Assembly: GCA_014378465.1 (NCBI GenBank)
Contig: JACMNQ010000057.1
Coordinates: 1-64,000 of the forward strand
Source of the DNA: Oligoflexia bacterium
GTDB taxonomy: Bacteria; Bdellovibrionota; UBA1018
DNA: 64,000 bases
Direction: 5' to 3'
The translations under genes were made by a program, and so were the position numbers. Of the stretch, positions 1,471 to 63,976 are shown in pieces. Every line of letters starts with the position of its first letter. Within the stretch, counting starts at the first letter, position 1. Below the pieces are notes generated by a model. It was not told where the DNA came from and made no database searches. It saw nothing but the letters and a program-made list of their open reading frames with translations.

Positions 1471-1601
1471 GCAGCAGGACTATGGATAAATCATACCAAT
1501 TCTTCAAGACTCTCAGCCCCATCGTCCGGCTTTCTGATGCAGGACCTTATACAGAGGTATGACACGCCGAAGGCATATTCCTTGCTTTGCCTAGTAGAAA
1601 T

Positions 1602-3188
1602 ATGAATGAAATTTTTAAGCCTGCGACCGAAAGCCTCTGGACTGAAAATACCGCTCAATTTGACTATCCCCAGCTCAAGGGCAGGAAATCCGTCGACGTG
1701 GCCATCATCGGGGGAGGTATGACGGGCCTCACTGCCGCACTTCTCCTGAAGAAAGCCGGCAAGTCGGTCGCGGTTGTTGAAATGCATCACGTCGGAACGG
1801 GCGAGTCAGGTCACACGACCGCTCACCTGACCGAGCTGATTGACACTGGCTACTCTCAACTGGTTTCAGATTTCGGAGTCTCGGGAGCGAAGACCGCGGC
1901 ATCCTCTGGCCGCGCTGCGATCGAACTGATCGCTCTCCTTTCAGAATCCCTGGACATCGATTGCGATTTTGAACGGGTTCCCGCTTATCTCTATTCGGAA
2001 GATCGCTCGGGAGTTTCCAAACTCAAGAAGGAGCTCAAGTCGTTGAAGAAAGTCGGCATCCGCGCGGACTATCAGAAGGACATCCCGCTGCCCTTTCCCA
2101 TCAAAGGAGCCGTGAGGATCGACGATCAGGCCCAGTTTCATCCCTACCGGTACATGCGAGGGCTCGCCAGCGCGATTCACGGCAAAGGTTCCTTCGTGTT
2201 TGAAAATTCAATCGTGCGGGAAGTGAAGGAAGAGAAAAATTCCTGCACCGTGCGAACCGATGCCGGAGAAATCACTGCCACGGACGTGATCGTCGCCACG
2301 AACTCACCCTCCTTCTGTCGCATGACCCTGCACACGAAGATCTCGGCGTACCGGACTTATGCCATGGCGGTCGAAGTGGACGCCGATCTCAGCGGAAAAC
2401 TGCGGAACGTCAAGGGCCTGTTCTATGACACTGCCGATCCCTATCACTACATTCGGAGCCAGAAAATCGACAAAATCAACTACTGGATCATCGGCGGCGA
2501 AGATCACAAAGTGGGAATGGAAGAGGACACGGACCAACGCTTCGCTCAGCTCGAAGCCTATTCTCAGGAACGCTTTGACATCAAGTCGGTGGACTACCGG
2601 TGGTCCGGTCAGATCATCGAACCGATGGACGGACTCCCCTTCATCGGCCTCAATCCAGGATCCAGCCATCAATACCTCGCCACCGGTTACAGCGGCAACG
2701 GCATGACCTTCGGGACGGTGGCTGGCATGCTGTGCTCCGACCTGATTCTCGGGGTGAAGAATCCCTGGTCGGAACTCTATGATCCCGGTCGCATCCATGC
2801 GAAGGCTTCAGCTGCCACCTTTCTCAGCGAGAACAAGGATTTTCCCATCTGCTTCATCAAAGACCGCGTGGCGGCCCCCGAAGCGACTTCCCTCGGCGAG
2901 GTTTCTCCTGGCGAGGGAAAAATCATCAAAGTGAACGGGAAAACCGCTGCAGTTTACCGCAACCTTGCGGGTGAGGTGCAGGCCGTGTCGCCCGTCTGCA
3001 CGCACATGGGCTGCTACGTGCGATTCAATGACTCGGAAAAATCCTGGGATTGTCCCTGCCATGGTTCGCGTTTTGGAACGGACGGTGAGGTTCTGAACGG
3101 ACCTGCCAAGAAAGACCTCCAGCCCGTGTCTCTTGAGGAACTGTCTGAAGCCGGTGCTGAACGGAAAAAGCGGAGCGACGCCGCTTGA
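1602..3188 (+). CDS. FAD-dependent oxidoreductase with C-terminal Rieske [2Fe-2S] domain
   Basis: A protein of about 528 residues. An FAD-binding Rossmann motif (VAIIGGGMTG) lies near residues 33-42 and a DAO-type fold follows, including a conserved late FAD contact region (GLPFIGLNPGS, YLATGYSGNGMTFGT). The last 65 residues form a Rieske domain with CTHMGC at 466-471 and CPCH at 484-487, the two Cys-His pairs that hold a 2Fe-2S cluster. The family is known as DadA-like oxidases with a Rieske tail; substrate is unknown. An in-frame TTG at 1587 is an alternative start, but ATG 1602 matches the usual short N-terminus. No signal peptide, so cytoplasmic. It stands alone and is followed by a hairpin. 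Confidence 0.9.
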   Translation: MNEIFKPATESLWTENTAQFDYPQLKGRKSVDVAIIGGGMTGLTAALLLKKAGKSVAVVEMHHVGTGESGHTTAHLTELIDTGYSQLVSDFGVSGAKTAASSGRAAIELIALLSESLDIDCDFERVPAYLYSEDRSGVSKLKKELKSLKKVGIRADYQKDIPLPFPIKGAVRIDDQAQFHPYRYMRGLASAIHGKGSFVFENSIVREVKEEKNSCTVRTDAGEITATDVIVATNSPSFCRMTLHTKISAYRTYAMAVEVDADLSGKLRNVKGLFYDTADPYHYIRSQKIDKINYWIIGGEDHKVGMEEDTDQRFAQLEAYSQERFDIKSVDYRWSGQIIEPMDGLPFIGLNPGSSHQYLATGYSGNGMTFGTVAGMLCSDLILGVKNPWSELYDPGRIHAKASAATFLSENKDFPICFIKDRVAAPEATSLGEVSPGEGKIIKVNGKTAAVYRNLAGEVQAVSPVCTHMGCYVRFNDSEKSWDCPCHGSRFGTDGEVLNGPAKKDLQPVSLEELSEAGAERKKRSDAA

Positions 3189-3213
3189 AGTTCTTTTCCG
3201 CTTGATTGCAAAG

Positions 3214-3243
3214 GCCTCTCTCCTCAAACTGAAGGAGAGAGGC
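3214..3243 (+). promoter_or_regulatory. Perfect 11-bp hairpin just before the next start codon
   Basis: GCCTCTCTCCT at 3214-3224 pairs exactly with AGGAGAGAGGC at 3233-3243 around an 8-nt loop. There is no T tract after it, so it is a poor intrinsic terminator. The only purine-rich Shine-Dalgarno candidate for the TTG start at 3252 (AGGAGAG) lies inside the 3' arm, so the structure could mask the ribosome site. Confidence 0.5.
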
Positions 3244-3251
3244 AGGACCGA

Positions 3252-4281
3252 TTGAATTTCCAAAACCCCAGATTCAAGCTCGGATCCGTCGTCGGCTGGA
3301 CTGGCGTCACGCTTCTGGCGATGGGTGGGTCGGGAGTCTCCACGTCCGCTTCGGAATTCAGCTCGTGCCGCCCGGCCGAATCCGGCGTGAAAACGATGAT
3401 CGGCGAGCTTGAGAAGCGCCACACCCAGAGTGAAAAATTTGCAGCGATGCTGCATGCAACCGAAAATCCCGCAAATCACGCTTCACAATCGGTATCCATG
3501 TCCGTTCTTCCTGATCAGGGGACCATGACACTGGATCTGATTCATCAGTTCAAACCCGCTACACTTGAGCACTTTGAGCAGGTCGTGGCTGCACTCTCGT
3601 CGGAGAAGGTCACCAATGGCCTGGCCAATGTATTGGCCATTCGCGGAAAGCCTCCGGCCAAACTTTACACTTCTGTTGCGAGAGCGGTGAATCCAGACGA
3701 TCCAAAGGGTTACCTCCTGCTGACTGAAGTGTCCCTCAAGGGCACGGTCCACCTCGGTAACACTCAGATGAAATGTTCCGAGACTCGAACAGTCACGACC
3801 TGGGCGCGGACCTGTGAGCCAAATTTGAAAGACGAAGATACTGCCAAGCGCACTCGCGGAGGGGGCTTCACGAAAACGAGCTGCACCTTGAAAGACACGG
3901 GTCTGAGCTGCGAGACTCACGTCCAGGCGAAACCCAAGCCCATTTCAGTTCCCTTCCTGCTGAAAGTTCCCGTGAAGAGGGTCACGGTCTCAGGCGATCT
4001 GACCGCGTCTCAGGCGATCTGACCGCGTCTCAGGCGATCTGACCGCGTCTCAGGTCGCTTACCGCGCCCTCAACCGTGCACTCGAACTGGCCTCGGCTTC
4101 GTTCGAATTCGCGGACTCGGCGAAATCACTGCCGCTGAAGGTTTCCGACGAAATCCTCGAAGAAGCCGTGCAGAGTTACCGGGGCAGCATTTTTCGCCAG
4201 GACCTTGATGAATTCATGAAAAAAATTCCGGCGGATACCACGAAGGAAGCCAGTTCTCTCAATTATTTCAAGTCAATCTGA
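3252..4281 (+). pseudogene. Exported protein of unknown function, frame broken by a 20-bp tandem repeat
   Basis: The open frame 3252-4022 (TTG start) gives 256 residues with a weak N-terminal hydrophobic stretch, four Cys in the middle region (KCSETR, RTCEP, TSCTLKD, LSCETH) and no recognised domain. It stops inside a triplicated 20-bp unit. If only one copy of the unit is kept, the frame continues as VSGDLTASQVAYRALNRALE and runs to a TGA at 4279-4281, adding about 85 helical residues ending in ASSLNYFKSI. Three copies add 40 bp and shift the frame; one or four copies would restore it. I do not recognise the family. It may be a decayed gene, a switchable gene or an assembly artefact. Confidence 0.6.
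3991..4050 (+). repeat. Three perfect 20-bp direct tandem repeats
   Basis: The unit CAGGCGATCTGACCGCGTCT occurs at 3991-4010, 4011-4030 and 4031-4050 without mismatch, followed by the first four bases of a fourth unit. Because 20 is not a multiple of 3, copy number decides whether the surrounding gene is in frame. Confidence 0.95.
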
Positions 4282-4333
4282 AACACGATCAGACGCCTTT
4301 CAGCTCGAACATCTTTTCAATCAGCCTTTCTTT

Positions 4334-4870
4334 TCAATTCGCCTTGCCGGCAATGAGAAAGTCAGCTTCGAGCAGAAGTTGACCGAGCTTTGAACCTTGA
4401 TCATCGGAGACACGGCATCCGCTCTTCTGCTTCACTTCATCCCCTGAACGCATGCTGATGCTGTAATGACTGCGGCAGAGTGGAGCGCTCGCCGCGGGCA
4501 GACGGGCAGTCTTGCATTCGAGCGCGACGAACTCAGCCATGTGGCTTTTGAACTCGTGGTACTTGTCCGGGCTGATCTTCTTGGATTTCACGAGCTCATG
4601 ATCCAGAAAACTCGTCGCGAGCACCTGGCCTTCCTTTTCGCTGAGAACAAAGCGATGCGCGTCGTGGCCACGGTTATAGGAGATTTCAATCTCGCTGATG
4701 GGGGCCACAGCAGATTTCGTCTCAGCCAACTCCACACTCCGGTGAGGTGCGGAACTGCAGGCGGTCAGTGCACTGGCGCCGCAGAAAGTGCACAATGAAA
4801 GCAGGAAAAATCCTGTGAAGCGTTCCAGAAAGAGGCTGCGAGTTCGGGTGATGTGAGTTTTGTTCATCAT
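4334..4870 (-). CDS. Lipoprotein of unknown function
   Basis: About 178 residues. A basic N-terminus, a hydrophobic stretch (FFLLSLCTFCGASALTAC) and a lipobox LTAC followed by SSA indicate an outer-membrane or periplasmic lipoprotein. The rest is soluble, with three more Cys (LECK, PLCRS, SGCRV) that could form disulfides. I do not recognise the family. The start at 4870 is chosen because GGAAAA lies seven bases upstream; an in-frame ATG at 4906 would overlap the upstream metalloprotease gene, whose stop is at 4884. The 13-bp spacing suggests the two form an operon. Confidence 0.75.
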   Translation of the reverse strand: MMNKTHITRTRSLFLERFTGFFLLSLCTFCGASALTACSSAPHRSVELAETKSAVAPISEIEISYNRGHDAHRFVLSEKEGQVLATSFLDHELVKSKKISPDKYHEFKSHMAEFVALECKTARLPAASAPLCRSHYSISMRSGDEVKQKSGCRVSDDQGSKLGQLLLEADFLIAGKAN

Positions 4871-4883
4871 AGTTTTTCCAGAT

Positions 4884-6101
4884 TCATTCAAATTGACAGT
4901 ATTCATTGCTCTGAGCCGCCTGGCTTTGGGTCATCTGCCTGGCAGGCACCGCGGGGTTGAGTAATTCTTTGGACAGAAGCGTGTGGGAAATCAGGTGAGA
5001 ATTCCCAGAAAAATTCTCGGTGCAGCCGAGCGTCGCGCGGATGGCGGGGTTATTTCCGAAAATTTTCTCAATCCGGATTTCCGGCGAAGGATGAAAGGTC
5101 AGATCCAGTTCACTGAGCGAATCATCCTGCTCACAGAGATCTCTGACGGAATTGACGACCGCGTGCCGGAGTTGCTGAGCATCAAACTCGGTGGCAAAGC
5201 GGCGCAGCGTATCGCCCGCGACCTGCGCCGCCATCCAGTCGGCAAAGACTTCAGAAAGCTGGTCGTCATGGCCGCACTCCGCACGGGTCTCTCTCGAAGC
5301 GACCAGTCCCGTCTTGAGAAAGCACCCGGCCAGGCGTTGATAGGCGGGTACGGTCACTCCCCCTTCACGCAATTCACAGGGATCGATCGCATGCGCGAGT
5401 TCATGAGAAACGGTGTAAATGATGTTGAACCAGGAAGTGACCGAAGTCAGGTAGGCTCCCCCCACCCTCAGGCGGGCCTTGCCGTCAGGAAACATCTCGT
5501 AATACACGCCTGATTTCGTGATCAGATCCGGATCATCATCATAGATGTGAGCGGGAGGAGGCAGGCTCAGTTCCACGTTGTTGAGGCGAGCGACCAGGAT
5601 CGCCTTCTCCAGCGGTGAAAAAACTTTTGCGGGCTGCTTCTCGATGAAGCGTTCAAGCGACTGCTTCACCCAACTGAAGGCTCCCCGCACGCGCTTCACT
5701 TTTTCCGGGGTGTAAATCTTCTGAGTGAGCTCTTCGTAGACCTGTTCGCGTGTCCAGTCCGGATGCTGGGTCATCGTCTCTTCAAAAATGTGAAGCGTTT
5801 CAACTTCACCTTCGATATCCCGTCGCACGTAGCCGCTGGGGTCCCGGGTCTCGCCTCTTTTGCGGCAGATCACCTGATGAAAACTCCTGCATAGCTGCTG
5901 CGAAGACGTCTTGCCCTTGGCGCTTGGACGATGTTCTCCCAGAAGCACGTCCTGCGCGGGAGTGCGCATGCCGGCCTCCACCGGATTGGTATCCGAGGAA
6001 CTGGAGCCATTGAGGTGCAAATACCTCTGATTGAGAGGCACCATGATGGCAAAGAGCGCAAGTGCTCCCACGCCGGCGATGCCCAGAGTACGAAACTGCA
6101 A
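4884..6101 (-). CDS. Exported HExxH metalloprotease-like protein
   Basis: 405 residues with an N-terminal hydrophobic segment (residues 8-20) that serves as signal or anchor. HELAH at 233-237 is a zinc-site motif, and SEVFADW at 283-289 supplies a likely third ligand (E284) in the ExxAD pattern of gluzincin peptidases. Cys residues (71, 79, 242, 260, 276) suggest disulfides outside the cytoplasm. It is probably a periplasmic or secreted zinc peptidase; the substrate is unknown. The TTG start at 6101 has a good GAGGAG ribosome site eight bases upstream, which decides for it. The lipoprotein gene follows after 13 bp. Confidence 0.75.
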   Translation of the reverse strand: MQFRTLGIAGVGALALFAIMVPLNQRYLHLNGSSSSDTNPVEAGMRTPAQDVLLGEHRPSAKGKTSSQQLCRSFHQVICRKRGETRDPSGYVRRDIEGEVETLHIFEETMTQHPDWTREQVYEELTQKIYTPEKVKRVRGAFSWVKQSLERFIEKQPAKVFSPLEKAILVARLNNVELSLPPPAHIYDDDPDLITKSGVYYEMFPDGKARLRVGGAYLTSVTSWFNIIYTVSHELAHAIDPCELREGGVTVPAYQRLAGCFLKTGLVASRETRAECGHDDQLSEVFADWMAAQVAGDTLRRFATEFDAQQLRHAVVNSVRDLCEQDDSLSELDLTFHPSPEIRIEKIFGNNPAIRATLGCTENFSGNSHLISHTLLSKELLNPAVPARQMTQSQAAQSNEYCQFE

Positions 6102-6182
6102 GATCCACTCTCCTCAGTTCGATCATCTCAGTTTTTGAAAACGGAGGAACGTGCTATTTTTTTGACGCCCTTGCGGACCGGC

Positions 6183-7184
6183 TCAATGTCCGAGAAGGCT
6201 CAGCAGGGTCGCTTTGGTCTCGGCATGGGTCGCTTGAGCGGCCACGGTGGTCAGGTACTCGCCGATCTTCGAAGCGGGAACCGCATAGGAAAGCTGCGAC
6301 CAGACTTCGGGCCCCTGACTGACCAGGAGATGATCCAGAAACGCGGTACTTTGAACGACGGAGGATTTCGGGATTCTTCCCGTCCAGATGATGCCCACGA
6401 CTTCTCCGGATTTGCGGTCAATCATGGCCGAACCGGAATCGCCATGCGAGACGTCGCAACCATTCGCGAAGGACCATGCTTTGTAATCACTGGGATTGAC
6501 ATCGTCCGGATCCGCCATGAAGTGAAAGTCATTCTTCGCTGAAAACACCCGGCAGTCATGATCCTGATTGGAAACCAGAACACGATTCGGATTATCGGCG
6601 ACTCCGTAACCGATCGTCAGAAGATCCAGTCCGGGAGTCAGGTCCTTCTTGAATGCGAAATTTCCAGCGACCGTGGCCAAGGTCTTCTCGTCCTCGGCAG
6701 TTTTCACTTCGACGGCGAAGAGCGCCAGATCGACATCCGACCAGTGGCCGAAATACTTGTTCACCTTGAGACTCAGCTTGAGAAAAGGAAACTCCGCGCG
6801 CTCGCTCAGACACGCGTAGGCCGCGGGACAGACGTGATGATTGGTGGCCATGACGTGAAAGCCGTTGAACTTTCCGAGGTAAAAAGCGGTTCCGCCGCCC
6901 AGCTTCGCGGTCGCGAGTGCCGCTCTTCTGAAAGCGGGAGTGGCCTTCTGAAGTACCGCCGCTGTGACCGGAATCTTTCCCCACTCATCCCCCAGGCGAT
7001 AATCTTCATGGCCGGTGCGGAAAATATCGGGAAGCGGAAGCCTCCAGGTCGTTGCACTGGAATTTGATGCAGAAGTGAGTGGCAGTGCTGCGAATGCTTT
7101 CGCGCTGCTGGAGCCCAGACCGATCAAAGCGCCGAGTACGCCCAATGCCACGAATGAGAGACTGAAGGACCGATGTTTTTTCAT
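6183..7184 (-). CDS. Secreted trypsin-like serine protease
   Basis: 333 residues. A signal peptide (MKKHRSFSLSFVALGVLGAL, cleavage near AKAFA) is followed by a chymotrypsin-fold domain: TNHHV with the catalytic His at 117, SDVDLALF with Asp 152, and HGDSGSA with nucleophile Ser 250. The downstream GEVVGII strand is also typical. It therefore looks catalytically intact, acting outside the cytoplasm. AGGAG lies just before the ATG. A candidate promoter sits at 7204-7231. It is a separate unit from the metalloprotease 80 bp downstream but on the same strand, so the three minus-strand genes here may form an exported-protein group. Confidence 0.9.
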   Translation of the reverse strand: MKKHRSFSLSFVALGVLGALIGLGSSSAKAFAALPLTSASNSSATTWRLPLPDIFRTGHEDYRLGDEWGKIPVTAAVLQKATPAFRRAALATAKLGGGTAFYLGKFNGFHVMATNHHVCPAAYACLSERAEFPFLKLSLKVNKYFGHWSDVDLALFAVEVKTAEDEKTLATVAGNFAFKKDLTPGLDLLTIGYGVADNPNRVLVSNQDHDCRVFSAKNDFHFMADPDDVNPSDYKAWSFANGCDVSHGDSGSAMIDRKSGEVVGIIWTGRIPKSSVVQSTAFLDHLLVSQGPEVWSQLSYAVPASKIGEYLTTVAAQATHAETKATLLSLLGH

Positions 7185-7203
7185 GAAGTTCTCCTGTCAT
7201 TTT

Positions 7204-7231
7204 TGAATATCATGGGAGCCGCGTGAGTCAA
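7204..7231 (-). promoter_or_regulatory. Candidate sigma-70 promoter for the serine protease
   Basis: On the minus strand TTGACT (7231-7226) and TATTCA (7209-7204) are separated by 16 bp. The -10 box ends 19 bp before the ATG, implying a very short leader. The -10 match is only moderate. Confidence 0.4.
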
Positions 7232-7773
7232 ACTTCAGGAGTGAATCACCGGAATGATTTGAGTTCCCAATTTGCGCGAACCCACCTTTTATGCTAATTA
7301 TTCGAGCCTAATTATTCGGACTTTTCCTCGGCCGGGGCATTTCATCGACCTTAATGCATGGCACCAGACTTGGCGCGCGCCGCGCGGCATCGCCAGAAAA
7401 CCCGTTCAGGGGTCAGCTCCCTCTTCATCGTTCAATCTCCGAGCGCCCTTCATTTTCAGTTCAGAGACGGAGAGCGCAAGTGTCGGGTCCTATCCGACAT
7501 TCGCACTCCTGAGACGATGACATTTTGCTGTTCCTCTTCAGGGGCCCGGGAGGTTTCCGCGATATCTGGGATGACACCTGATCAAAGTCTGATCACATTC
7601 GGGGACCCGGCAAGCAAACAGGCTGCGATATCACGGCGCTTTTTTACATCGCCTTCCGGCACTCGTCTTGCTCTTGAAAGACTCCGAGAGACTTCGTCAA
7701 AATTAGAGAGTTGGCGGAGATGACCCCAGAGATGACCTGAGAGTTTGCCCCAGAGGCAGTACGAGGAGTGAAT
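7232..7773. other. Gene-free stretch between divergent genes
   Basis: I see no convincing gene here on either strand. It holds a small direct repeat (TAATTATTCG twice, near 7296-7320), a GC-rich patch with GGCGCGCGCC near 7373, and a purine-rich stretch with two AGATGACC copies near 7720-7740, just before the ribosome site of the next gene. Promoters for the plus-strand gene should lie here, but none is clear by eye. Confidence 0.5.
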
Positions 7774-8850
7774 ATGAAGAAGTTTTCCCGGTCCACGGTT
7801 ACTACCCTGCTCATTGCAACTTCGTTCGGTGTGCTCACCAGTTCCACCGCCTTCGCGAAATCTGGAAAGCCTTGGGACGGTCATGCTCCCGACATCAGTG
7901 GCGCGGACGATCTGACGATCGACCGCGAAGATGATGTGAAAGGTGTGCTCTACCGGATTCAGATGGACATCGTCACTCAGGACGAAAAAGCCACCTTTGC
8001 TCAGCAATCCATCTCCGAGCTCGCCAACGCTCCGGCGCCTGAAGCCGGCAAACTCGCAATAGGTGTCGGCAAGCTCAAGAACAGATTCTCCATCTGGAAT
8101 GAGAAGCGCAAGATGAAACGCGCTCTCGAAAACGAAGACGCTGGAAAGTCCACCCACGAACAGGAAGAGATCAGCGCTCAGAAGAGCATGTCGAAGATTT
8201 CCGAAATCAATGCGAGAGCGGAAACTGCTCCAGCGCCCACCGGCCTGAAGAAGTGGTTTTCGAGAGCGAAGAACAACGTCGTCACAGCGAAGAAGACCGG
8301 TGACCTGGACGCTGCCTTGGATTACCGAAATGAACTCGAGATCCAGAAGCAGATCATCGATGGATACCAGAGTTCTGATTCCGCCAAAAGCTGCCTGGGA
8401 CGCGCCTGCCTTCTGGCTCGTTACAAGCTCGTTTCTGACATGATCGACGTGCAGCGCTCCATGAAACTTCAGAATATCATGCACCTGTCAAAGGCTTCGG
8501 ATGCTGAAAAGGCGAATCTGGAACACCTCAAGATTGAGAAGGAAGTGTTGGCTGAAGTTCTGAAAAGCCGTCATGATCTCGAAGATTCCAAGATCATCGA
8601 TCCAAACTCTCCAGAGACTTCACTCGGCCGCGTGCAGAAGAAGTTGAATGAGAAAAGAGAAAAAGACAATGACCGCATCGTCGCCGCCCAGCAGTTGAAC
8701 AAGGACCTCGCTCCAGTCGCGGCTGCTGCCGCAGCGGGATCAGCTCCGGCCCGCACGAGTTCAGCTTCGGGACTCATGACCGGTGAAGAGCGCCGCGCAG
8801 GCTTCAAGAACGGTTGCGAATCCGCTGAGGGCTGTTACGTCGAAGAGTGA
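7774..8850 (+). CDS. Secreted helical protein of unknown function
   Basis: 358 residues. A classic signal peptide (KKFSRSTVTTLLIATSFGVL, cleavage after AFA near residue 28) is followed by a mostly charged, helix-rich protein with likely coiled coils (KRKMKRALE, LEHLKIEKEVLAEVLK) and a Pro/Ala-rich linker (APVAAAAAAGSAPA) near the C-terminus. Two Cys pairs (SCLGRAC and NGCESAEGC) could form disulfides. I do not recognise a family. ATG 7774 is chosen over the in-frame GTG 7768 because GAGGAG lies five bases before it. It is convergent with the HEAT-repeat gene and shares a terminator with it. Confidence 0.75.
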   Translation: MKKFSRSTVTTLLIATSFGVLTSSTAFAKSGKPWDGHAPDISGADDLTIDREDDVKGVLYRIQMDIVTQDEKATFAQQSISELANAPAPEAGKLAIGVGKLKNRFSIWNEKRKMKRALENEDAGKSTHEQEEISAQKSMSKISEINARAETAPAPTGLKKWFSRAKNNVVTAKKTGDLDAALDYRNELEIQKQIIDGYQSSDSAKSCLGRACLLARYKLVSDMIDVQRSMKLQNIMHLSKASDAEKANLEHLKIEKEVLAEVLKSRHDLEDSKIIDPNSPETSLGRVQKKLNEKREKDNDRIVAAQQLNKDLAPVAAAAAAGSAPARTSSASGLMTGEERRAGFKNGCESAEGCYVEE

Positions 8851-8876
8851 TTCTGAAGCCATTTCAGAAATTGAAC

Positions 8877-8924
8877 GCCCCTTTCGAATCATTGCGAGAC
8901 CCTCGCAAGAGTCTCGAAGGGGGC
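8877..8924. terminator. Two-part hairpin between convergent genes
   Basis: GCCCCTTTCGA (8877-8887) pairs with TCGAAGGGGGC (8914-8924), and inside it TTGCGAG (8892-8898) pairs exactly with CTCGCAA (8902-8908). It lies between two stops facing each other (8850 and 8928) and probably ends transcription from both sides. Confidence 0.7.
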
Positions 8925-8927
8925 CCT

Positions 8928-10928
8928 TCATTTGACCCTGTTCGATACCTTGCTCATCAACTCCTGGATCTGTGGGTCCGCAGGTTTGATCTGCTCTAGA
9001 GCGTGATAAGCGGCCGATCTCACATCGATATCGCCATTGTCCAGATTTTTGGCAAGGGCGGCTATCGCTTTTGGTGTGACAGTTTTCATGCGTCCCAGAC
9101 TGTCTGCCGCTTGGACCTGCACAGCGACATTGTTATCGCCAAGTCGGTCAGCAATGAGGCTTTGCACGCGTTCGTCAACTGAGCTTGCAGCCCCTAATGA
9201 AACGATGGCGTAATAGCGCACATCCGGCGAAATATCCTTCAGTGCATCAAGCATTCGCGCCTGAATTTCGGGAGTCACTGGTACTGTTTCAGTGAGGACC
9301 CGAATCGAGGCAACCCTCACTCCAGTATCTGAATCATTGATGAGGCCTAATAATTTTGTAACCTGTTCGGTTTGACTCATTCCAGTTCTACCCATCACCG
9401 CCACGGCGGTGCGACGGACTCTTGGATCAGGATCGTGAGTAGCAGTTGCCACTAATGTTTTGCGTTCGGTCCCGCTTGAACGAAATCCTGGAAGTAGTTC
9501 AATCACCTGTGACCTGACTTCAGGCGCTGGATCCTTGTAAAAGCTCGAAATGAGGGCCTGAGTCTTGGCCATATCCGGACCGACTTCGGCCAAGGCCCGA
9601 AGTGCAGTGGAACGCCATTCCGGTTCAGGGCTCTTCAGCAATTTCATCAGCATCCCCTTATGGGAAGCAGGAAATTGAAAATTCGATTTTCTGAATTCTG
9701 AAAATTCAATATTTAATTTGAAAAAACTTTCGATTTTCCTTAAGTCAGTCGACTCACTCAGGAGTCGCTTTGAAATTTTCCAACATTCCGCATTGGTTTC
9801 GGCTTCATTTAACCAGGAAAGCCTCCTCGCGACAGAAATCCATTTCATTTTTTGACGGTCAAATTGGTAGGGTTTTCGTATGAGCGTCAAAAGAGCGGCC
9901 TTGAGACGGGGGTTGTCCCGCAGCTCCTTGATCTTACGTTTGATTGGGTCGCTGAGGGCAGCTTCGTCAAGCTCGGCAAGCAAGCTTTGAGCGGTTGGCA
10001 CGAATGCGAGCGCGTCTTTGCCGTCCAAGAGAGTCTTCAAAGCGGTCAAGCGTTGCTCGAGCGGCTTACTCTTGTCTCGAGTCATGCAAACGGATGATTG
10101 AATAGCCGCATCTTTCTGACATATGCCGTTCCCACACGTGATATTCGTATCTTTCAGGCTACATCGAAAGGCGTCCTGTATATTATTGTTCTGCTTTTCG
10201 AATTGGCTGAGTAGCGAGCTCATGCTCTTGGCACTACGCTCTGCCTCCAATGATTGAAGAAGATTTGCGAAATCTGGATTTTTAACAAAATAGTTATCGA
10301 TCATTTTACTGACGTGACTTCCCAAGGGTCCCACTGAATCGAAACCGTAAATTCTCGACGAATTGCTGAAGACATTGAGCATTCTCTTTGAGTTCATCTG
10401 ACCCGTGGGCCCGTACCTGGATTCGCTGAACGCTTCTGCTAAAGACGGTTCGAAACCATCCTCGACGAGCATCTCATAGTAAGACTGACCGTTTCTCGAA
10501 TCTTTGGCCTTGGTAGCCAGCGTATTGCACCCGAAGAGAAAAACTGCTTTGGGATCTTTCAACACTCCATTACAGGTTTGCGCGCATGACTCAGCTTCAA
10601 GATCCTCCAAGGGCAGATAGAAACCGGAAGCGCCAAAAAAATCTCCGACAAAGTGTCCTGAAATGATCAATGCATCACAGCTCGTTTGCATGGCAGTCGC
10701 CTTCGCGCACGCATCACGGAACCAGGATCTGAAATTTTTTCGGCTCAATTCCGGCGGGGTAAGTTCGATGAACTCAAAAGCCTTTGAATCTAGATGCTTC
10801 TCGAAGGTTTTCTTTTCGTCGGTTGAATTGATACTGATTGTGCAGATGGTACTCTTGGCCAGAGCGTTTTGCTGAATAAGTAAAGCCGAGATCAATGCCG
10901 TGATTGCACGGAGGTTTTGAGCCTTCAT
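8928..10928 (-). CDS. Secreted caspase-like domain plus HEAT-repeat protein
   Basis: About 666 residues. Signal peptide to about residue 25 (cleavage after ALA). The first 200 residues hold LIISGH (His 92) on a strand before a loop, then VFLFGCN (Cys 134) at the end of a strand, the His/Cys arrangement of caspase-like CHAT or gingipain-type domains. The C-terminal third has at least six HEAT repeats of about 30 residues (WRSTALRALAEVG, VRRTAVAVMGRTG, VRVASIRVLTETV, VRYYAIVSLGAAS, VQVQAADSLGRMK, VRSAAYHALEQI). Protease activity is inferred from the motif only. The coding DNA is locally AT-rich around 9660-9730 compared with its neighbours, so transfer is possible. Of three consecutive ATGs, the third (10928) is best spaced from AAGGA. 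Confidence 0.7.
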   Translation of the reverse strand: MKAQNLRAITALISALLIQQNALAKSTICTISINSTDEKKTFEKHLDSKAFEFIELTPPELSRKNFRSWFRDACAKATAMQTSCDALIISGHFVGDFFGASGFYLPLEDLEAESCAQTCNGVLKDPKAVFLFGCNTLATKAKDSRNGQSYYEMLVEDGFEPSLAEAFSESRYGPTGQMNSKRMLNVFSNSSRIYGFDSVGPLGSHVSKMIDNYFVKNPDFANLLQSLEAERSAKSMSSLLSQFEKQNNNIQDAFRCSLKDTNITCGNGICQKDAAIQSSVCMTRDKSKPLEQRLTALKTLLDGKDALAFVPTAQSLLAELDEAALSDPIKRKIKELRDNPRLKAALLTLIRKPYQFDRQKMKWISVARRLSWLNEAETNAECWKISKRLLSESTDLRKIESFFKLNIEFSEFRKSNFQFPASHKGMLMKLLKSPEPEWRSTALRALAEVGPDMAKTQALISSFYKDPAPEVRSQVIELLPGFRSSGTERKTLVATATHDPDPRVRRTAVAVMGRTGMSQTEQVTKLLGLINDSDTGVRVASIRVLTETVPVTPEIQARMLDALKDISPDVRYYAIVSLGAASSVDERVQSLIADRLGDNNVAVQVQAADSLGRMKTVTPKAIAALAKNLDNGDIDVRSAAYHALEQIKPADPQIQELMSKVSNRVK

Positions 10929-10960
10929 CATCATCCTTGTCGGCGCACTCGTCGGTCTTC

Positions 10961-11041
10961 TTAAACTACCTCGACCGTCTTAGTTGATTTCAGTGTCACT
11001 TGCTTGACGGGAGCAATTGAAGCAATCCGCTCTAGAATGCC
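10961..11041 (-). pseudogene. Possible out-of-frame remnant of the UvrC helix-hairpin-helix domain
   Basis: Downstream of the uvrC stop, another frame reads ILERIASIAPVKQV then TLKSTKTVEVV and stops at 10961. Its spacing resembles the first HhH motif of UvrC (LxxIPGIGPxRxxxLLxxFGSVExV), but both hairpin glycines are changed. This is a by-eye resemblance over 25 residues and could be chance. Confidence 0.3.
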
Positions 11042-14900: not shown

Positions 14901-17777
14901 ATGAGATCCATCCGAAGCGCAATCATCTTATTCGCACTGTCATCTTACGCTTTGACTCTCAGTGGCTGCTTCTTGAAAAAAAGAGCCTCCGCCCTTGAAT
15001 CTGCCGCTTCTCACGCGAGTCGAAACCTTGCCGCTCAGATGGAAAAAAAATCGAATTTGACCCGATTTTCGGGTCGTGCCCTTCAGGTAAGACTCTCCGC
15101 TCTGTTTCCTGCACAGTTTGCCGCAAATCCTGACCGGGATTATTTCTCCAACGAACTTGCAGTGGGTGCGGATCGCGCGATTGCGCAACTCAACCGTCCG
15201 GTCAACGCGCTGGAACAGGTCGGACTCAAGGGAAACGTCACCCGGCTCTGTGCCAACGAAGTCGTGCCCGCATCATACGGGTCCGCTCCTCGAAGCAGCA
15301 TCTATTCTGATCAAGTCTGGCTCAGTACAGAGACCACGAGACCGACGGATGAAGCACTTTTAGCGGCAACCCTGGTCGCGCGCAACGTCTGGCTCGATCC
15401 ACTCCCCCTCACTTCCCTCGAAATCACCGAGCTCTCGAGGCTCTACACTGCAGTCTACGGAACAGTGGATGGCTCGGAATCCCAGAGCCCCACCGCCAAA
15501 CGACAGCGCTCTCACCAGGCCATCTGCATCGCTGCTCTCTCCGCTCCTCAGTTTTCGATGGGTCTGCAAACCGTCAACGATCCGCTTCGGCGAATGATGA
15601 TCGAAATCGGCAGCCGAGTCCCTTTGATCTCGGAGCTTGAAAATTTCCAGGGCAAGAAAAAATCCATCCTCGAGTTTCTGAATGAACTGCAAAAAAATTC
15701 AGCCAGTGGCTACTATACCGCGATCCACCAGTGGCATGAAGACTGGTTTGGACTCAGGCGCTTTTTACCCGAGAATGGACCGACTTGGGATCCTCGTGGA
15801 TCCGCCTACTTCTCTCCTTCTGACTTTTTCGCTGTCGGGTATACGGCAACCCCCGATTCCAATCCAGCGAAGCTTCCCCTGACCGTTCCCTACAGGGATT
15901 CTGCACAGTATCCCGGCGTTGGCCAGGCATACATTCCGTACACTTGCGATCCGAATATCGACGAGGACTTCGATCCCAGAACGACCATGATCATTTTTGA
16001 ACGTCAGACCGGCCCAAACTGGGAAGTGACTGGAGCCTTCGTGCACAAACAGAAGGTGACAAACTCTCAGGGGCCGCAATCCTATCAGAGTGTGCTGTCC
16101 GCTTATGGAGTGCTGGATTTCAACCCAGCCGTCGATTGCATGGATTTCGACCACGCACCGGTACTACCGGTGGTCAATGGCGCACTTCAAAATGATCCCG
16201 AGCATAACAACGACAGCCGTTTTGCGATCGAAGAACCCAATTACCTGCGCTGCAGGGGTCGCATCACTGATCCAGGCGGAAGCGGAAGCCTCGTGCCGAG
16301 TCGAATGCAGGACTTCTACCGGACCGTTGCGGACCATCCCCTTCGCATGCGACGCATTTCACCTTCTGGAGAGCAACACGGAGTCAGCCGGGTCAAAACC
16401 TGGTACACTCAACAGGACAGACGAGTCTGCAATTCAATGCCGCGCTACTTCACAACCTGTGCACTCCGTGCCCGTGGAAATTACGGCGGGAACGGGGACG
16501 CATGGGATTTTTATGAAATACCCGGAAATGGCTATTTTTCACACAATAGTTGGTGGTTCTCCACCTCTCTCGCTCATCCAGGTATTTTGAATCAATTCCG
16601 CTGCGGAATTCCCGATATGAATGCGATTTCGAGATCGGATGGACCGCTGACACTTCAGACTGACCTGATTGCGTACCCCCATGGCTACGACAGATCCAAA
16701 TACCTGGCACCTTTCGATGCGCAGAATCCGGTCAATCTCAACGAGTTGATCACCGCTGGCTATTCGGTCGCAGAAGTCGGGAAAGAGGGCGATGCGATCA
16801 AACGCCTGAGGAAGGACCTGAAGACTGAACCGTATCAACTGATTGACCACGTGGTTTTCAACAACCGATCTTACAGAGAGGTTTTTACCGCCGACTACCT
16901 GGTTGGACATGAAGAGCTTGAACTGTTCTATCGGGCTCAGGGAATGTTGACTCCAGTCTACCCGCCGGGAATGTCCGCTCCCGACAGTTCTCTCGACCGA
17001 ACCATCACCACTCCATCAATCATGCCACTCAATCGCTTTCAGAGCATGTCGTCCAACCTCTATGCATCCGGTCCCAGTTCCTACTTTCTGAACTACGCCT
17101 TCAACATGATTTACTTTCAGAAGCCCATTACGATGATTCCCCGCCGTCCAGCGGCCGGAGTCCTGGCCATGCCGGCATTTCTGACGCCCGTAGGTGGAAA
17201 TGGAGGCAAAATGAGGACGATTGCTTCACGCTACTTTGCGCGGCTTCTTTGCGGCGATCCTGGTGCCTTCGTCCCCACACCGGCGGAGAAGGTGGTTCAT
17301 GTCCGGCACATGCTGGATGCTGCGAATCCGGAAACTTCCCGAACCGCTGCCGATCATCTTGATCCCACCAAAGGTTGCATTGCCTGTCATGTGAACCTGG
17401 ATCCTCTCGGTGCCTCTTTATCCCCTCAGTTTCTGGGCAACGTGCAGGTGAACGAGGGCGCCGCCATTCAAGGGGAGATGGCTTTTACACCCGTCGGGCT
17501 TGGAGCGGGCTGGGGGGCATACAAAGGAACAGGCGCGTTCCTTGGTGAAGAAGTGACGGGTGTTGAAGGAGTTGCAAGAAAGCTCGTGACTTCGGATATC
17601 TGGGCCAAGTGCGTCGTCCAGAAGACCTTCGAAAATGTTTTTGGCAGAGTGGTCAATCTTCCGGCCGAAAAGGAAACCTTTGACGGCTGGACCAGAAAAT
17701 TCCAGACCCAGGGCCAAAATTACAACCAGCTGGTCCGGGACATGGTCGGCTCTTCACTCTATCAAGGAGTCAACTGA
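14901..17777 (+). CDS. Large lipoprotein with a CxxCH haem site (DUF1588-like)
   Basis: 958 residues, lipobox LSGC at Cys 23. Most of the protein is unfamiliar by eye, but the end has GCIACHVNLDPLGASLSPQF at about 825-844. CxxCH is a covalent haem c motif, and the following LDPLG pattern is the hallmark of DUF1588 and related planctomycete-type cytochrome proteins. It is therefore likely an outer-membrane or periplasmic c-type cytochrome of unknown partner. GGGGGAG lies seven bases before the ATG. The stop overlaps the start of the Tat-exported DUF1501-like gene (TGATG), so the two are translated together and probably work together. Confidence 0.75.
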   Translation: MRSIRSAIILFALSSYALTLSGCFLKKRASALESAASHASRNLAAQMEKKSNLTRFSGRALQVRLSALFPAQFAANPDRDYFSNELAVGADRAIAQLNRPVNALEQVGLKGNVTRLCANEVVPASYGSAPRSSIYSDQVWLSTETTRPTDEALLAATLVARNVWLDPLPLTSLEITELSRLYTAVYGTVDGSESQSPTAKRQRSHQAICIAALSAPQFSMGLQTVNDPLRRMMIEIGSRVPLISELENFQGKKKSILEFLNELQKNSASGYYTAIHQWHEDWFGLRRFLPENGPTWDPRGSAYFSPSDFFAVGYTATPDSNPAKLPLTVPYRDSAQYPGVGQAYIPYTCDPNIDEDFDPRTTMIIFERQTGPNWEVTGAFVHKQKVTNSQGPQSYQSVLSAYGVLDFNPAVDCMDFDHAPVLPVVNGALQNDPEHNNDSRFAIEEPNYLRCRGRITDPGGSGSLVPSRMQDFYRTVADHPLRMRRISPSGEQHGVSRVKTWYTQQDRRVCNSMPRYFTTCALRARGNYGGNGDAWDFYEIPGNGYFSHNSWWFSTSLAHPGILNQFRCGIPDMNAISRSDGPLTLQTDLIAYPHGYDRSKYLAPFDAQNPVNLNELITAGYSVAEVGKEGDAIKRLRKDLKTEPYQLIDHVVFNNRSYREVFTADYLVGHEELELFYRAQGMLTPVYPPGMSAPDSSLDRTITTPSIMPLNRFQSMSSNLYASGPSSYFLNYAFNMIYFQKPITMIPRRPAAGVLAMPAFLTPVGGNGGKMRTIASRYFARLLCGDPGAFVPTPAEKVVHVRHMLDAANPETSRTAADHLDPTKGCIACHVNLDPLGASLSPQFLGNVQVNEGAAIQGEMAFTPVGLGAGWGAYKGTGAFLGEEVTGVEGVARKLVTSDIWAKCVVQKTFENVFGRVVNLPAEKETFDGWTRKFQTQGQNYNQLVRDMVGSSLYQGVN

Positions 17778-19588
17778 TGATGAACCGCAGACTATTTCTC
17801 AAACAGGCGGTAGTCGGATCCATTTCACTGACCGCCCTCGGAAGCGTGGCCACCCGTCGTGCTCAAGCGACGACGACCAAGCCCAGTATCCCTCGCCGCT
17901 TTCTGATCAACATCATCAAAGTCGGTGGTACCGACATATTCTGGCTGCACGGCGCTCTCAGGCCCCGCGACCTGCAGACTGCGGCAAACCCGGCGATTGT
18001 CCTCGATTCGAGCGGCGGCCGACCTTATCAACCGGTCGGTACCGGATTCTATGATCGCTACACGATTCGTGAGGACGAAGCCCTTCTTCATGCCCACACA
18101 TCATCGACCAATCTGCGAGTTCATCAATTCGGCACGGGATTCAAGCAGCTCTTTTGCGAGAACCGTTTCGATGGGGGTGCCGGCGCCCCTCTCATCTCCA
18201 AGATGTGCATCTGGAAAGGGATGAAAAGTGATTGTCTCCACGAAGTCGACAATCCGATTCTGAATCACGGCGTGGCATCGTCCTACGCTCTGAGTTTCAC
18301 GGCAGTCGTTTCACGTTTTCTGGCGACCGAGTCGCCTCGAATTCTTCACTACACTGTACTTGAGTCCACCCCGCAGGATGCTCACCTCAATTTCGCGATG
18401 AATTCAGATTTCGCTTCGCCGAGCTGCATTCCGGGCATCGCCGGACTGGCTCAGCTGACCGGACTGGATCCAAACGATTTCCCACTGAAGTCTCGGCGAG
18501 ATCTCATCGGGGACGCCGTCACCCGGCTTGCAGGCGCCGCCATGACCAATCGACTCACGCTCAAATCCAGCATCGCCTCCCTGGCGACATTCACCAACAG
18601 TTACCATGCGGGGAGTGCGCTGGCCGGATCCTTTCTTGACCGGGATATTGAACTCTATTATCTGCGCAGTCGATTCCTGATTCGTGTTCATCAGGCCCTC
18701 TACACTTATTTTGGACTGACTTCAAACGGCGGATCCGGTCAGCTCTTTGATGCGCTCACCGCCCTTCCGGGAAATGCTGGATCCGGTCTCGCTTCCGGAG
18801 CGGACTCAATCGCAACTTTCAGAAATGCGATTTCTTACATCAATGCTCATCCAATTCCAGAGACCACCTTGATCGCCTACCGTGCGAAGAAAATTCTCAA
18901 GCAGGATACTTCCACCGAAGAGTCCGTACTGCTTCCCGTCTTTTCAGGCCTGATTCAGAATCTGCGCTGGCTTTATCCGGACCTGATCGAAAAATTTGCA
19001 CTCTCCGCATTTCTCGTCCGTCAGAATCTGAGTGCAGTCATTGATTTCAAAGAAGGCTATGGCATGAATGTCACCGACGACCCACATGGCAACACGCTTC
19101 CTGGGCTGATCAAATCGATGGTATTTCATGCCAGTTATGCCGAACTGATGCAGGCCCTGGACGAAGTCAAGAATGCTGCCGGAGTACTCGACGGAGAAAC
19201 ACTTCTTGATGCCACTCACATCGTCATGCACACCGAGATGGACCGAACTCCCTGGATCCACAATAACTCCCTGGGAATCAACGGCGGCAGCAATCATGCG
19301 GGCAACTCGACGAGTGTGCTCATGGCCGGCTATGGCATCCATGGAGGCTCCGTGATCGGCGATCTCCACAAAGGACCCGCCGATGACAATCAGTACGGAG
19401 CCCTCGGATTTGTCTCCTCGATGCCTATAGACATCGGCACTGGCTTGCCGAATCGCAATGGCACAAAAGTATCGATCAAGTCCCTCGCGCCGACAGTGAT
19501 TGAGATGTTCGGCGAGAAGCTGGTGCCCCTTCAACAGATCAGCGATGAAAGTTTTGTCCCTGCGGTTGTGAAGCGAAGAATGGCCTGA
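17777..19588 (+). CDS. Tat-exported DUF1501-like protein
   Basis: 603 residues. The N-terminus MMNRRLFLKQAVVGS is a twin-arginine signal (RRLFLK), so the protein is exported folded. The C-terminal third has MHTEMDRTPWIHN and NHAGNSTSVLMAGYGIHGGS, then VIGDL, matching the end of DUF1501 proteins, which have an alkaline-phosphatase-like fold. In planctomycetes and other groups DUF1501 genes commonly follow genes for DUF1553/DUF1588-type cytochrome proteins, as here. Enzymatic activity is unproven for the family. The start overlaps the previous stop by one base. Confidence 0.8.
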   Translation: MMNRRLFLKQAVVGSISLTALGSVATRRAQATTTKPSIPRRFLINIIKVGGTDIFWLHGALRPRDLQTAANPAIVLDSSGGRPYQPVGTGFYDRYTIREDEALLHAHTSSTNLRVHQFGTGFKQLFCENRFDGGAGAPLISKMCIWKGMKSDCLHEVDNPILNHGVASSYALSFTAVVSRFLATESPRILHYTVLESTPQDAHLNFAMNSDFASPSCIPGIAGLAQLTGLDPNDFPLKSRRDLIGDAVTRLAGAAMTNRLTLKSSIASLATFTNSYHAGSALAGSFLDRDIELYYLRSRFLIRVHQALYTYFGLTSNGGSGQLFDALTALPGNAGSGLASGADSIATFRNAISYINAHPIPETTLIAYRAKKILKQDTSTEESVLLPVFSGLIQNLRWLYPDLIEKFALSAFLVRQNLSAVIDFKEGYGMNVTDDPHGNTLPGLIKSMVFHASYAELMQALDEVKNAAGVLDGETLLDATHIVMHTEMDRTPWIHNNSLGINGGSNHAGNSTSVLMAGYGIHGGSVIGDLHKGPADDNQYGALGFVSSMPIDIGTGLPNRNGTKVSIKSLAPTVIEMFGEKLVPLQQISDESFVPAVVKRRMA

Positions 19589-26043: not shown

Positions 26044-27576
26044 TCAGATGTATTCCCAGGCCGTTCCCTGTGGACTGTCCTTGATCATGACACCCTTGGA
26101 CTCCAGATCCTTGCGGATCCGGTCACCTTGGGCGAAGTCCTTCGCCTTGCGTGCGTCAGCCCGAGCCTGGATGGCCGCTTTGATTTCATCTTCAGTCATT
26201 CGCAGAGTGCCACTTGCCGTGGCGCGCTCAGCTTTGATGCGTTCCAGATCGGCCAGCATCTTTTCGGGATTGCCACGCCCGATGCCAAGAACATCTCCCA
26301 GATCCATTTCCATCACCTTGATCAGTTCCTGCGCTCCCAGAATTGCCGAAGGAGTGGCAGAAGCGCGAGGCTCGGCCAGAGTCCGATTGAAGCTCCGAAT
26401 CAAGGTGAAGAGCGACGCGACTGCACCTGCCGTATTGAAGTCGTTTGCAAAGTGGTCATCCATCTCACGACGCACGGCCTCACACTCCGACATGAAGGAG
26501 CCCCAGGCACTTTCGGCGCGGAGGTCGGGCATCGCCATCTTGAGCTGTGAAATCTGCAGCGCTTTGGCCTTGGCTTCATAAATGCGATGCAGAGCGATCA
26601 AAGTGTGTTCAATCGCTTCGTCGCCGAAATCTATGATCGAGCGGTAGTGAACCGAAAGCAGAAGGTACCGGGTGAACTCAGTCCCGAACCGGACGAGAAA
26701 ATCCCGAGCGCCGAGCACATTGCCCAGACTCTTGGACATCTTCTCCTTGCCCATGTTCAGAAATGCGGAATGCAGCCAGTATTTCACGTAGGGCGCATGT
26801 CCCGTACACGCTTCGCTTTGTGCAATTTCATTTTCATGGTGAGGAAACACCAGATCCTCGCCGCCGTGATGGAGATCCATCTGGTCGCCGAGCCATTTTC
26901 CCGCCATGGCGGAGCACTCGATATGCCAGCCCGGACGGCCTTTGCCCCAGGGACTGTCCCACGAAGGTTCTCCCGGCTTGGCGGGCTTCCAGAGCGTGAA
27001 ATCGAGCGGGTTGTGTTTCTTCTCACTCACTTCGACCCGGTGGCCGGCGACCAGGTCGTCAATGTTCTTGTGCGAAAGCTTTCCGTAGCCTTCAAAACTG
27101 GAAATTGAAAAGAGAACTTCGTAGCCTTCTTCTCCCGCGGACTTCTCAGCAACATAGGCTTTGCCGTTCGCGATGATCTTCTCGATCATGCCGATGATTT
27201 CGGGCATGTGCTCGGTCACTTTGGTCTTGTGAGTGGGCTCGTGCAGTCCGGCGAGCGCATAGTCCTTCTCGACTTCAATGATATAGCGTTTCGCGATTTC
27301 ATCTGAAGTGAGTTTTTCCTCATTCGCCTTTTTGATGATCTTGTCGTCGACATCCGTGAAATTTCGAACGAAGGTCACGTCATAGCCGACCTTCTTGAAG
27401 TAACGAAAGAACTGGTCCGCGACCAGCGCCGCCCGCAGATTCCCGATGTGAATGAAATTGTAAACCGTCGGACCGCAGGAATACATGCTGAGCTTTCCAG
27501 GAACGCGGGTTTCAAGAATTTCCTTCTTGCCGCTCAAGGTATTGGTCACTTTGATTTCACGAATCGGTCGGGTCAT
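26044..27576 (-). CDS. cysS: Cysteinyl-tRNA synthetase
   Basis: 510 residues; charges tRNA-Cys. Class I signatures are complete: HIGN at 43-46 and KMSKS in the C-terminal half (GKEKMSKSLGN). The zinc-binding Cys (YSCGPTVYN) and the late HHGGEDLVFPHHENE motif are also present, as is the DALR helical tail. AAGGAAC lies just upstream of the ATG, and a terminator-like hairpin ends 12 bp before the start, which may regulate it. It is convergent with the protease gene. Confidence 0.97.
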   Translation of the reverse strand: MTRPIREIKVTNTLSGKKEILETRVPGKLSMYSCGPTVYNFIHIGNLRAALVADQFFRYFKKVGYDVTFVRNFTDVDDKIIKKANEEKLTSDEIAKRYIIEVEKDYALAGLHEPTHKTKVTEHMPEIIGMIEKIIANGKAYVAEKSAGEEGYEVLFSISSFEGYGKLSHKNIDDLVAGHRVEVSEKKHNPLDFTLWKPAKPGEPSWDSPWGKGRPGWHIECSAMAGKWLGDQMDLHHGGEDLVFPHHENEIAQSEACTGHAPYVKYWLHSAFLNMGKEKMSKSLGNVLGARDFLVRFGTEFTRYLLLSVHYRSIIDFGDEAIEHTLIALHRIYEAKAKALQISQLKMAMPDLRAESAWGSFMSECEAVRREMDDHFANDFNTAGAVASLFTLIRSFNRTLAEPRASATPSAILGAQELIKVMEMDLGDVLGIGRGNPEKMLADLERIKAERATASGTLRMTEDEIKAAIQARADARKAKDFAQGDRIRKDLESKGVMIKDSPQGTAWEYI

Positions 27577-27587
27577 TTTTGTTCCTT

Positions 27588-27640
27588 AAAATGAAAATGG
27601 AGCCAGATCGTGGATCCTGGAAGGATCTTAATCTGACTCC
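27588..27640 (-). terminator. Intrinsic terminator or attenuator directly upstream of cysS
   Basis: On the minus strand GGAGTCAGAT (27640-27631) pairs with ATCTGGCTCC (27608-27599), with an inner GATCC/GGATC stem, and is followed by TTTTCATTTT (27597-27588). It lies after carD and only 11 bp before the cysS start. It could end carD transcripts or attenuate cysS. Confidence 0.7.
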
Positions 27641-27692
27641 AATCAAATTGTCGACTATTAGAGGCGCCGCTTTCAGCTGAAAGCCAGTGGCC

Positions 27693-28178
27693 TCAGGAAG
27701 CGAAAATGGTCTGAATTTCCTGCTCAATGATGTCTTCGCCGGTCTGCTTGGCCAAAGAGATCTCCTTCACGAGAAGGTGCTTGGCCTGGTCGAGCATCTT
27801 GCGCTCGCCGAAGGACAGATCCTTGCTGTGGCGAAGAAGAAAAAGATTGCGCAGAACTTCCGCGATTTCATACACGGAACCGGTCTTGATCTTCTCCATG
27901 TATTCACGGTAACGGCGATTCCAGGTGGTCTGGTCGATCTTCACGTCACGTTTTTTCAAGATTTTATAAACATTGCTGACGTCTTTCGTGGAGATGATCT
28001 CACGAAGACCGACAGAACCCACGTTATCGGTGGGAACCATGATGGTCATCTGGTTGTCGACGACTTGCAGCACATAAAACTGCTTCTTCTTGCCGCCCAC
28101 GTCTCTTTCATCAATGCGTTTGATGACTGCTACGCCATGGGCCGGATAAACTGCGCTGTCTCCAACTTTGAACATCAT
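27693..28178 (-). CDS. CarD/CdnL-family transcription regulator
   Basis: 161 residues. The N-terminal RNA-polymerase-binding Tudor-like domain (FKVGDSAVYPAHGVAVIKRI) and the C-terminal helical DNA-contact domain (WNRRYREYMEKIKTGSVYEI, then LSFGERKMLDQA) are both complete. Family members (CarD, CdnL) bind RNA-polymerase beta and stabilise open promoters at rRNA and growth genes. ATG 28178 is preceded by GGAGG at six bases. A strong promoter lies at 28286-28314 and a palindrome (GCTTTCAGCTGAAAGC, 27669-27684) just after the stop. Confidence 0.93.
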   Translation of the reverse strand: MMFKVGDSAVYPAHGVAVIKRIDERDVGGKKKQFYVLQVVDNQMTIMVPTDNVGSVGLREIISTKDVSNVYKILKKRDVKIDQTTWNRRYREYMEKIKTGSVYEIAEVLRNLFLLRHSKDLSFGERKMLDQAKHLLVKEISLAKQTGEDIIEQEIQTIFAS

Positions 28179-28285
28179 GCTGAACCTCCGACGACTACTT
28201 GAACCGCTGCACCGTGCAATGAATCCTGCATAAACCCTTGGTATTATGCATTAAACCTTACTTAGACAGAGTTTTGACTTGCGGG

Positions 28286-28314
28286 ATACTACCACACAAG
28301 CCCTTCAAAGTCAA
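28286..28314 (-). promoter_or_regulatory. Sigma-70-type promoter of carD
   Basis: TTGACT (28314-28309) and TAGTAT (28291-28286) on the minus strand with exactly 17 bp between. It leaves a leader of about 100 nt before the carD ATG. Confidence 0.65.
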
Positions 28315-28450
28315 TTTAACGAACCTCGACTCACCAACCTTAACTCACCGTATTTCAAGCGTTTCTTGGGCCTCTTAAAGTCTTCTGATAAAACCTTTAA
28401 AAGACACTTTGAATTGCTTCAGATCCAGCCGGCCCGCATCGTTGCAGGCG

Positions 28451-28492
28451 GACTCCCCTTGTGCACGGGGAGTGCCGAAATTGACACTCCCC
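28451..28492 (+). promoter_or_regulatory. Two mutually exclusive hairpins
   Basis: ACTCCCC (28452-28458) can pair with GGGGAGT (28467-28473). The same GGGGAGTG (28467-28474) can instead pair with CACTCCCC (28485-28492), followed by AAAAAA. Sharing the middle arm is the layout of attenuators and RNA switches. It lies between carD and the PilZ gene; the transcribed strand is not certain. Confidence 0.4.
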
Positions 28493-28569
28493 AAAAAAGA
28501 GTTAACTGCGCCTAATCTCTGGAGCCACTTTGGGACACACCCAATAAACTAGCGAAATTGACGCCAAAG

Positions 28570-28589
28570 TTATGAGCACCTGTTCATAA
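28570..28589. promoter_or_regulatory. Inverted repeat upstream of the PilZ gene
   Basis: TTATGA (28570-28575) and TCATAA (28584-28589) form a perfect inverted repeat with an 8-bp spacer, 38 bp before the ATG and 6 bp after a TTGACG box (28558-28563). It may be an operator. Confidence 0.3.
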
Positions 28590-28627
28590 AGTAGACAGAT
28601 TGAAAAAAAAGCCCTTAATATCAAACT

Positions 28628-55179: not shown

Positions 55180-55207
55180 GATCTACTCCTTAAAAAAACA
55201 AAAACGA

Positions 55208-56602: not shown

Positions 56603-56643
56603 TTTGGTTTTGAAATATCTCCCTATTTAGACTGACTTGCTCA

Positions 56644-57352: not shown

Positions 57353-57367
57353 GTTCTTCTTCCTCAT

Positions 57368-63869: not shown

Positions 63870-63919
63870 AAGCGGCGGGCCTTTGACAAATAGTGAATGA
63901 ACACCACTTTTAAGTAAGC

Positions 63920-63953: not shown

Positions 63954-63976
63954 CATTTCTCAGTCTGAAACCCAGC

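Follow-up and report, generated by a model that had tools for sequence, protein, structure and literature searches.

The window analysed here, a 64,000-nucleotide stretch of an Oligoflexia contig, carries a reverse-strand gene for a protein with a putative signal peptide, a caspase-like domain and HEAT repeats. The uvrC gene lies about 146 bp upstream on the same strand. On the other side, the caspase-like gene is convergent with the gene at 7768-8850, and the hairpin between the two is probably a terminator shared by both. The features of the locus are listed below.

8876..8930, strand (.): hairpin between the two convergent genes (-29.4 kcal/mol, z -2.6)
8928..10934, strand (-): whole open reading frame, 668 aa; the true start is likely 10928 (third ATG)
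8931..9668, strand (-): HEAT-repeat region, about residues 423-668 (Pfam HEAT_2, 3.2e-28; AF2 model)
9735..10127, strand (-): family-wide helical region, about residues 270-400, predicted first part of the solenoid (occupancy; AF2 model)
10275..10856, strand (-): predicted caspase-like alpha/beta domain, residues 27-220 (AF2 model; profile A6 to caspases; A6-A8-C14 chain)
10527..10529, strand (-): Cys136, candidate nucleophile (GC, after strand 130-134), conserved in A5 and A8
10653..10655, strand (-): His94, candidate catalytic His (SGH, after strand 88-92), conserved in A5, A4 and A8
10815..10817, strand (-): Glu40, invariant acid at the strand 1/helix 1 junction (75/75), candidate S1 residue
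10857..10934, strand (-): putative signal peptide, residues 1-26, ending in ALA (sequence; hydrophobic segment in 74/75 relatives)

A Shine-Dalgarno-like AAGGA is found 5 nt upstream of the third in-frame ATG at 10928. The start used in the initial annotation and its numbering of the dyad (H92 and C134) are therefore probably right. Residue numbers in this work count from the first ATG (H94 and C136), and subtracting two gives the earlier numbering. The signal peptide (1-26) is followed by the alpha/beta domain (27-220), alpha-solenoid helices and the HEAT repeats (about 423-668). The AF2 model has about seven helical pairs at 423-667, and the Pfam HEAT_2 match (PF13646, E 3.2e-28) scores 98.3 bits against a curated cut-off of 27.7, in agreement with the at least six HEAT repeats counted previously. 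Among the 75 relatives, residue occupancy is about 93-98% for positions 261-400 and lower past 400, and Pfam finds HEAT matches in 18. We therefore regard the HEAT extension as variable, added to a core that the family shares. The 961-aa frame of one relative (L119) was considered as a fusion and rejected; it is most likely a frameshift read-through.

The predicted signal peptide, as read from the sequence, has a short n-region with Lys/Arg, a hydrophobic core and the ALA end. In a hydrophobicity test, 74 of the 75 relatives showed a hydrophobic stretch at the N terminus, ahead of the domain, and every member of a divergent subfamily (A8) appears to be exported. The earlier proposal of an exported protein is thus supported at the level of sequence. 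Several cysteines of the family vary in pairs. Cys117 and Cys283 are lost together in 5 rows of the alignment and Cys76 and Cys121 in 8 rows, each of which may represent one event in one clade, and Cys31 and Cys86 persist together. From these co-losses, three disulfides are predicted (31/86, 76/121 and 117/283). The conserved pairs probably form disulfides, with Cys136 left free.

The AlphaFold2 model, built from the 75-row alignment, has a pLDDT of 86.7 and a pTM of 0.82, and most of the alpha/beta domain exceeds 90. Strands are placed at 28-34 (b1), 53-57 (b2), 88-92 (b3), 130-134 (b4), 194-198 (b5) and 265-269 (the sixth), with helices between them. The clan CD sheet has six strands, five parallel and one antiparallel, and five conserved helices, and the clan is defined by a catalytic His that precedes the Cys at the C-terminal ends of strands 3 and 4 (PMC4357240). 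The model has six strands and no fewer than five helices, whose order along the chain is that of clan CD. The initial annotation had called for a structure prediction of this region; in the predicted structure His94 is two residues past b3 and Cys136 two past b4, which is the clan CD arrangement. A Foldseek search with the whole model was swamped by solenoids, the top 50 being solenoid proteins and one long mTORC1 chain (rank 43) that, judged by its size, is probably Raptor. Foldseek with a single-sequence, domain-only model gave nothing meaningful, the model being too poor (pLDDT 44).

Both motifs named in the initial annotation, ISGH and FLFGCN, are present in the protein. That annotation had staked its reading on conservation of the His/Cys pair in homologues, and the pair is kept in all but a few relatives. 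Neither of the outcomes that it named as refuting was seen, with the fold judged by the strands that His and Cys follow. Alignment A5 has Cys136 in all 75 relatives and His94 in 74, counts that are biased since most of these relatives were found by patterns containing one or other of the two motifs. In one natural variant, L113:5743-8250, Glu replaces the candidate catalytic His and the Cys is retained. Profile-found sets are a cleaner test of the dyad than the pattern-based scan. Of 28 class-level rows found by profile (A4), 25 keep both residues, three lose both and none loses one alone. By chance, three His losses would match three Cys losses about 1 time in 3,000, if independence is assumed and kinship ignored. 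The rows without His and Cys are L060, L061 and L067 (L197), relatives that are probably pseudo-peptidases. SGH and GC are invariant in subfamily A8, where they are the only adjacent invariant runs. In the mixed and highly diverse alignment A1, the invariant positions are C31, E40, C86, S92, H94, G101, C117, C136 and F189.

None of the Pfam, NCBIfam and PADLOC models matches the caspase-like domain. No A6 member passes the curated cut-off of Peptidase_C14 (PF00656) or of CHAT (PF12770), the latter reached by one member at E 0.053 only, and neither the query nor the A6 members have a Pfam match to gingipain C25. In hmmsearch against PDB sequences, profile A1 gave six matches up to E 5, all of them caspases (best E 0.011), and caspases made up nearly all of the 25 matches up to E 10 with profile A6 (best E 0.017). 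The best-scoring solved structures, at marginal scores, were caspase-2, caspase-7 and an ancestral caspase 3/6/7. These matches belong to one family and therefore count as one marginal result. The link becomes firmer through the A8 bridge, which indicates sequence homology to a clan CD member. By hhalign, 128 columns of A6 and A8 align at E 1.5e-19, and the His and Cys of one profile match those of the other. A8 in turn aligns with Bdellovibrionota Peptidase_C14 proteins with a score of 43.8 (E 7.5e-6); column shuffles, 100 in all, reached no more than 21.4 and the reversed control 15.3. The direct hhalign comparison of A6 with C14 is not significant (E 0.25). Since the link runs only via A8, we filed the domain as related to C14 within clan CD and not as C14. 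Taken with the conserved pair and the strand order of the model, the caspase profile matches and the A8 bridge favour the caspase-like reading with a His/Cys dyad that was put forward earlier.

The family has no S1 signature of caspases or metacaspases. The SGHG and Asp-x-Cys motifs of C14 (in C14B, the metacaspase/orthocaspase group, with an acidic S1 residue at Cys-2) are absent and are replaced by SGH-F/Y/H and F-G-C, whereas the C14 set (A7) shows the C14 form. The Cys-2 position holds Phe in 64 of 75 relatives, or Met, in place of the S1 Gln of caspases and the Asp of metacaspases. In gingipain R, a single acid at the strand 1/helix 1 junction serves Arg (PMC4357240). By analogy, Glu40 on the S1 side might suggest a basic P1 residue, which is a weak guess.

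A contig scan with the single protein as query gave no matches, and a whole-genome search found relatives of the N-terminal domain in neighbouring genomes. Profile searches found the family in 22 of 58 genomes of the class; at the level of the phylum, the A6 profile detected it in 97 of 325 Bdellovibrionota genomes (about 30%). C14 in the strict sense is present in just 21 of 241 genomes of the phylum. Scanning GTDB genomes with sequence patterns yielded 111 relatives, of which 80 were kept. Their hosts are Bdellovibrionota (Bdellovibrio, Pseudobdellovibrio, Bacteriovorax and Halobacteriovorax lineages), a few bins labelled Deltaproteobacteria, and Burkholderiales (Ramlibacter, Rubrivivax, Aquabacterium and Rhodoferax). 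The tree unites the 26 betaproteobacterial sequences in a single, strongly supported group and places L069, from an Oligoflexia bin of the same order, as sister of the query. No relatives were found in phage, plasmid or viral contigs, and no conserved neighbour genes in 72 loci. The genome of the query itself (G000) has at least four divergent paralogues (C33:52150, C19:36761, C72:7628 and C34:60877; L178-L180, L209). The three that were examined appear to be exported and have SGHH/GGHH and ACNT/GCNT motifs.

The caspase-like gene has the lowest GC among window ORFs of at least 200 aa (0.482 versus 0.556 ± 0.019, z -3.8), and its GC3 is 0.517 versus 0.647. The difference between gene and flank averages -0.002 ± 0.023 in 76 relatives and is about -0.07 here, so low GC is not a property of the family. 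The sister gene L069 has a GC of 0.467, with flanks of 0.453, close to that of the query, and its identity to the query is only about 47-52%. In a genome of the same genus (G001), a homologue of window 1587-3185 lies within 2 kb after uvrC, and the caspase-like gene and its exported neighbours are absent. Positions 3200-11000 of the window, with five genes for mostly exported proteins between the anchors uvrC and the oxidoreductase at 1587-3185, are a lineage-specific segment. Gene gain in the lineage of the query is likely; the other reading of the absence is a loss in G001. The AT-richness noted in the initial annotation is real. The transfer it drew from that is plausible, given the lineage-specific segment and the sister-like GC, but the identity to that sister is only 47-52%. 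Other AT-rich stretches of the window are 27000-29000, 55000-58000 and 63000-64000 (GC about 0.46-0.52).

We consider, with reasonable though not high confidence, that the protein is an exported clan CD-type cysteine peptidase of its own family, related to Peptidase_C14 and outside it. The Sec-type signal peptide seen in the sequence would export the protein, which would then fold extracellularly or in the oxidising environment of the periplasm, where disulfides may tie the loops and the helical extension. The free Cys136 would act with His94 on peptide bonds. The helical region at 270-400, which HEAT repeats prolong in this protein, probably serves to hold or gate a protein substrate. Envelope proteins of the own cell, or those of prey and neighbours, are candidates for that substrate. 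More tentatively, at somewhat less than even chances, this would be a new clan CD family outside the cytoplasm, braced by disulfides and expanded several-fold in predatory and related bacteria, with inactive offshoots, that acts on the envelope proteins of the cell itself, its neighbours or its prey.

Raptor of mTORC1 has a caspase-like domain followed by HEAT repeats and shows no caspase activity (PMC5205667), and the same domain order in our protein raises an exported binding scaffold, in which the domain recognises a peptide without cutting it and the HEAT part carries partners. The probable Raptor chain at rank 43 of the Foldseek top 50 and the three relatives missing both dyad residues fit this idea. 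It is nonetheless unlikely, as a pure binding domain would not need the dyad that is retained almost everywhere. Legumain-type ligases share the His/Cys dyad. The same fold and dyad could thus serve another acyl transfer (transpeptidation or ligation), as in some clan CD enzymes, and the missing S1 signature of caspases or metacaspases would be compatible with this. However, the 72 loci show no conserved neighbour that could be a substrate or partner gene, and we rate this slightly below the scaffold.

The non-significant direct comparison with C14, together with chance-level flavodoxin matches from one divergent member, could also mean a different alpha/beta domain whose His and Cys owe their conservation to a structural role. 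The joint loss of the two residues, the dominance of caspases among the profile matches and the A8 bridge make that improbable. Caspase-like proteases also occur in defence systems, and PADLOC models matched the protein, but these matches are only to the HEAT repeats and we rejected a defence role. A cytoplasmic defence protease is the least probable reading, given the export signal in 74 of 75 relatives, the paired cysteines and the lack of conserved neighbours.

The peptidase that we favour has partial counterparts among known systems. It shares with C14/orthocaspases (PF00656) the His-then-Cys placement after strands 3 and 4, SGH and the putative homology through A8, and single C14 members elsewhere have signal-like helices or HEAT repeats. 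Unlike them, the family lies below Pfam detection, has SGH-F/Y/H and FGC in place of SGHG and D-x-C, and contains paired cysteines. Animal caspases (C14A) are the best-scoring solved structures but have S1 Gln where the query has Phe at Cys-2, and the query is predicted to be exported. The likeness to Raptor is one of architecture; Raptor is eukaryotic and cytoplasmic and carries WD40. Gingipains (C25) are secreted clan CD peptidases as well, but the query has no C25 match in Pfam at threshold, and TPR-CHAT proteases also join a clan CD domain to a helical scaffold, of TPR rather than HEAT type and with a CHAT domain that the query does not match at threshold. The HEAT scaffold and export of this protein were described before as unusual. 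Both features stand, their rarity only in part: prokaryotic caspase homologues with an N-terminal helix, maybe a signal peptide (PMC3501461), and cyanobacterial C14 proteins with HEAT repeats (PMC2853523, PMC7475262) are each known, and the combination is therefore not as unusual as was proposed. What is new is the family itself, for which no name was found in the literature searched (partial coverage).

Bdellovibrionota make many secreted hydrolases, and their prey-exit proteases singled out so far are serine proteases (PMC12546842). A caspase-type family missed by standard annotation would add a class of extracytoplasmic peptidase. The family also offers a route to how caspase-like domains came onto HEAT scaffolds, and its members in Bdellovibrio and culturable Ramlibacter make the question testable.

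The window contains other genes for exported proteins. Near the caspase-like gene, 6183-7184 (-) encodes an exported trypsin-like serine protease (Trypsin_2, 3.4e-7). The exported protein at 4884-6101 (-), which has no Pfam match, contains HELAH, an HExxH motif, and is possibly a zinc metallopeptidase. On the forward strand, 14901-17777 (+) shows weak DUF1588/DUF1585/DUF1592 matches, and 17777-19585 next to it encodes a Tat-type exported protein (14901-19585 in all), a pair that is commoner in Planctomycetes and myxobacteria.
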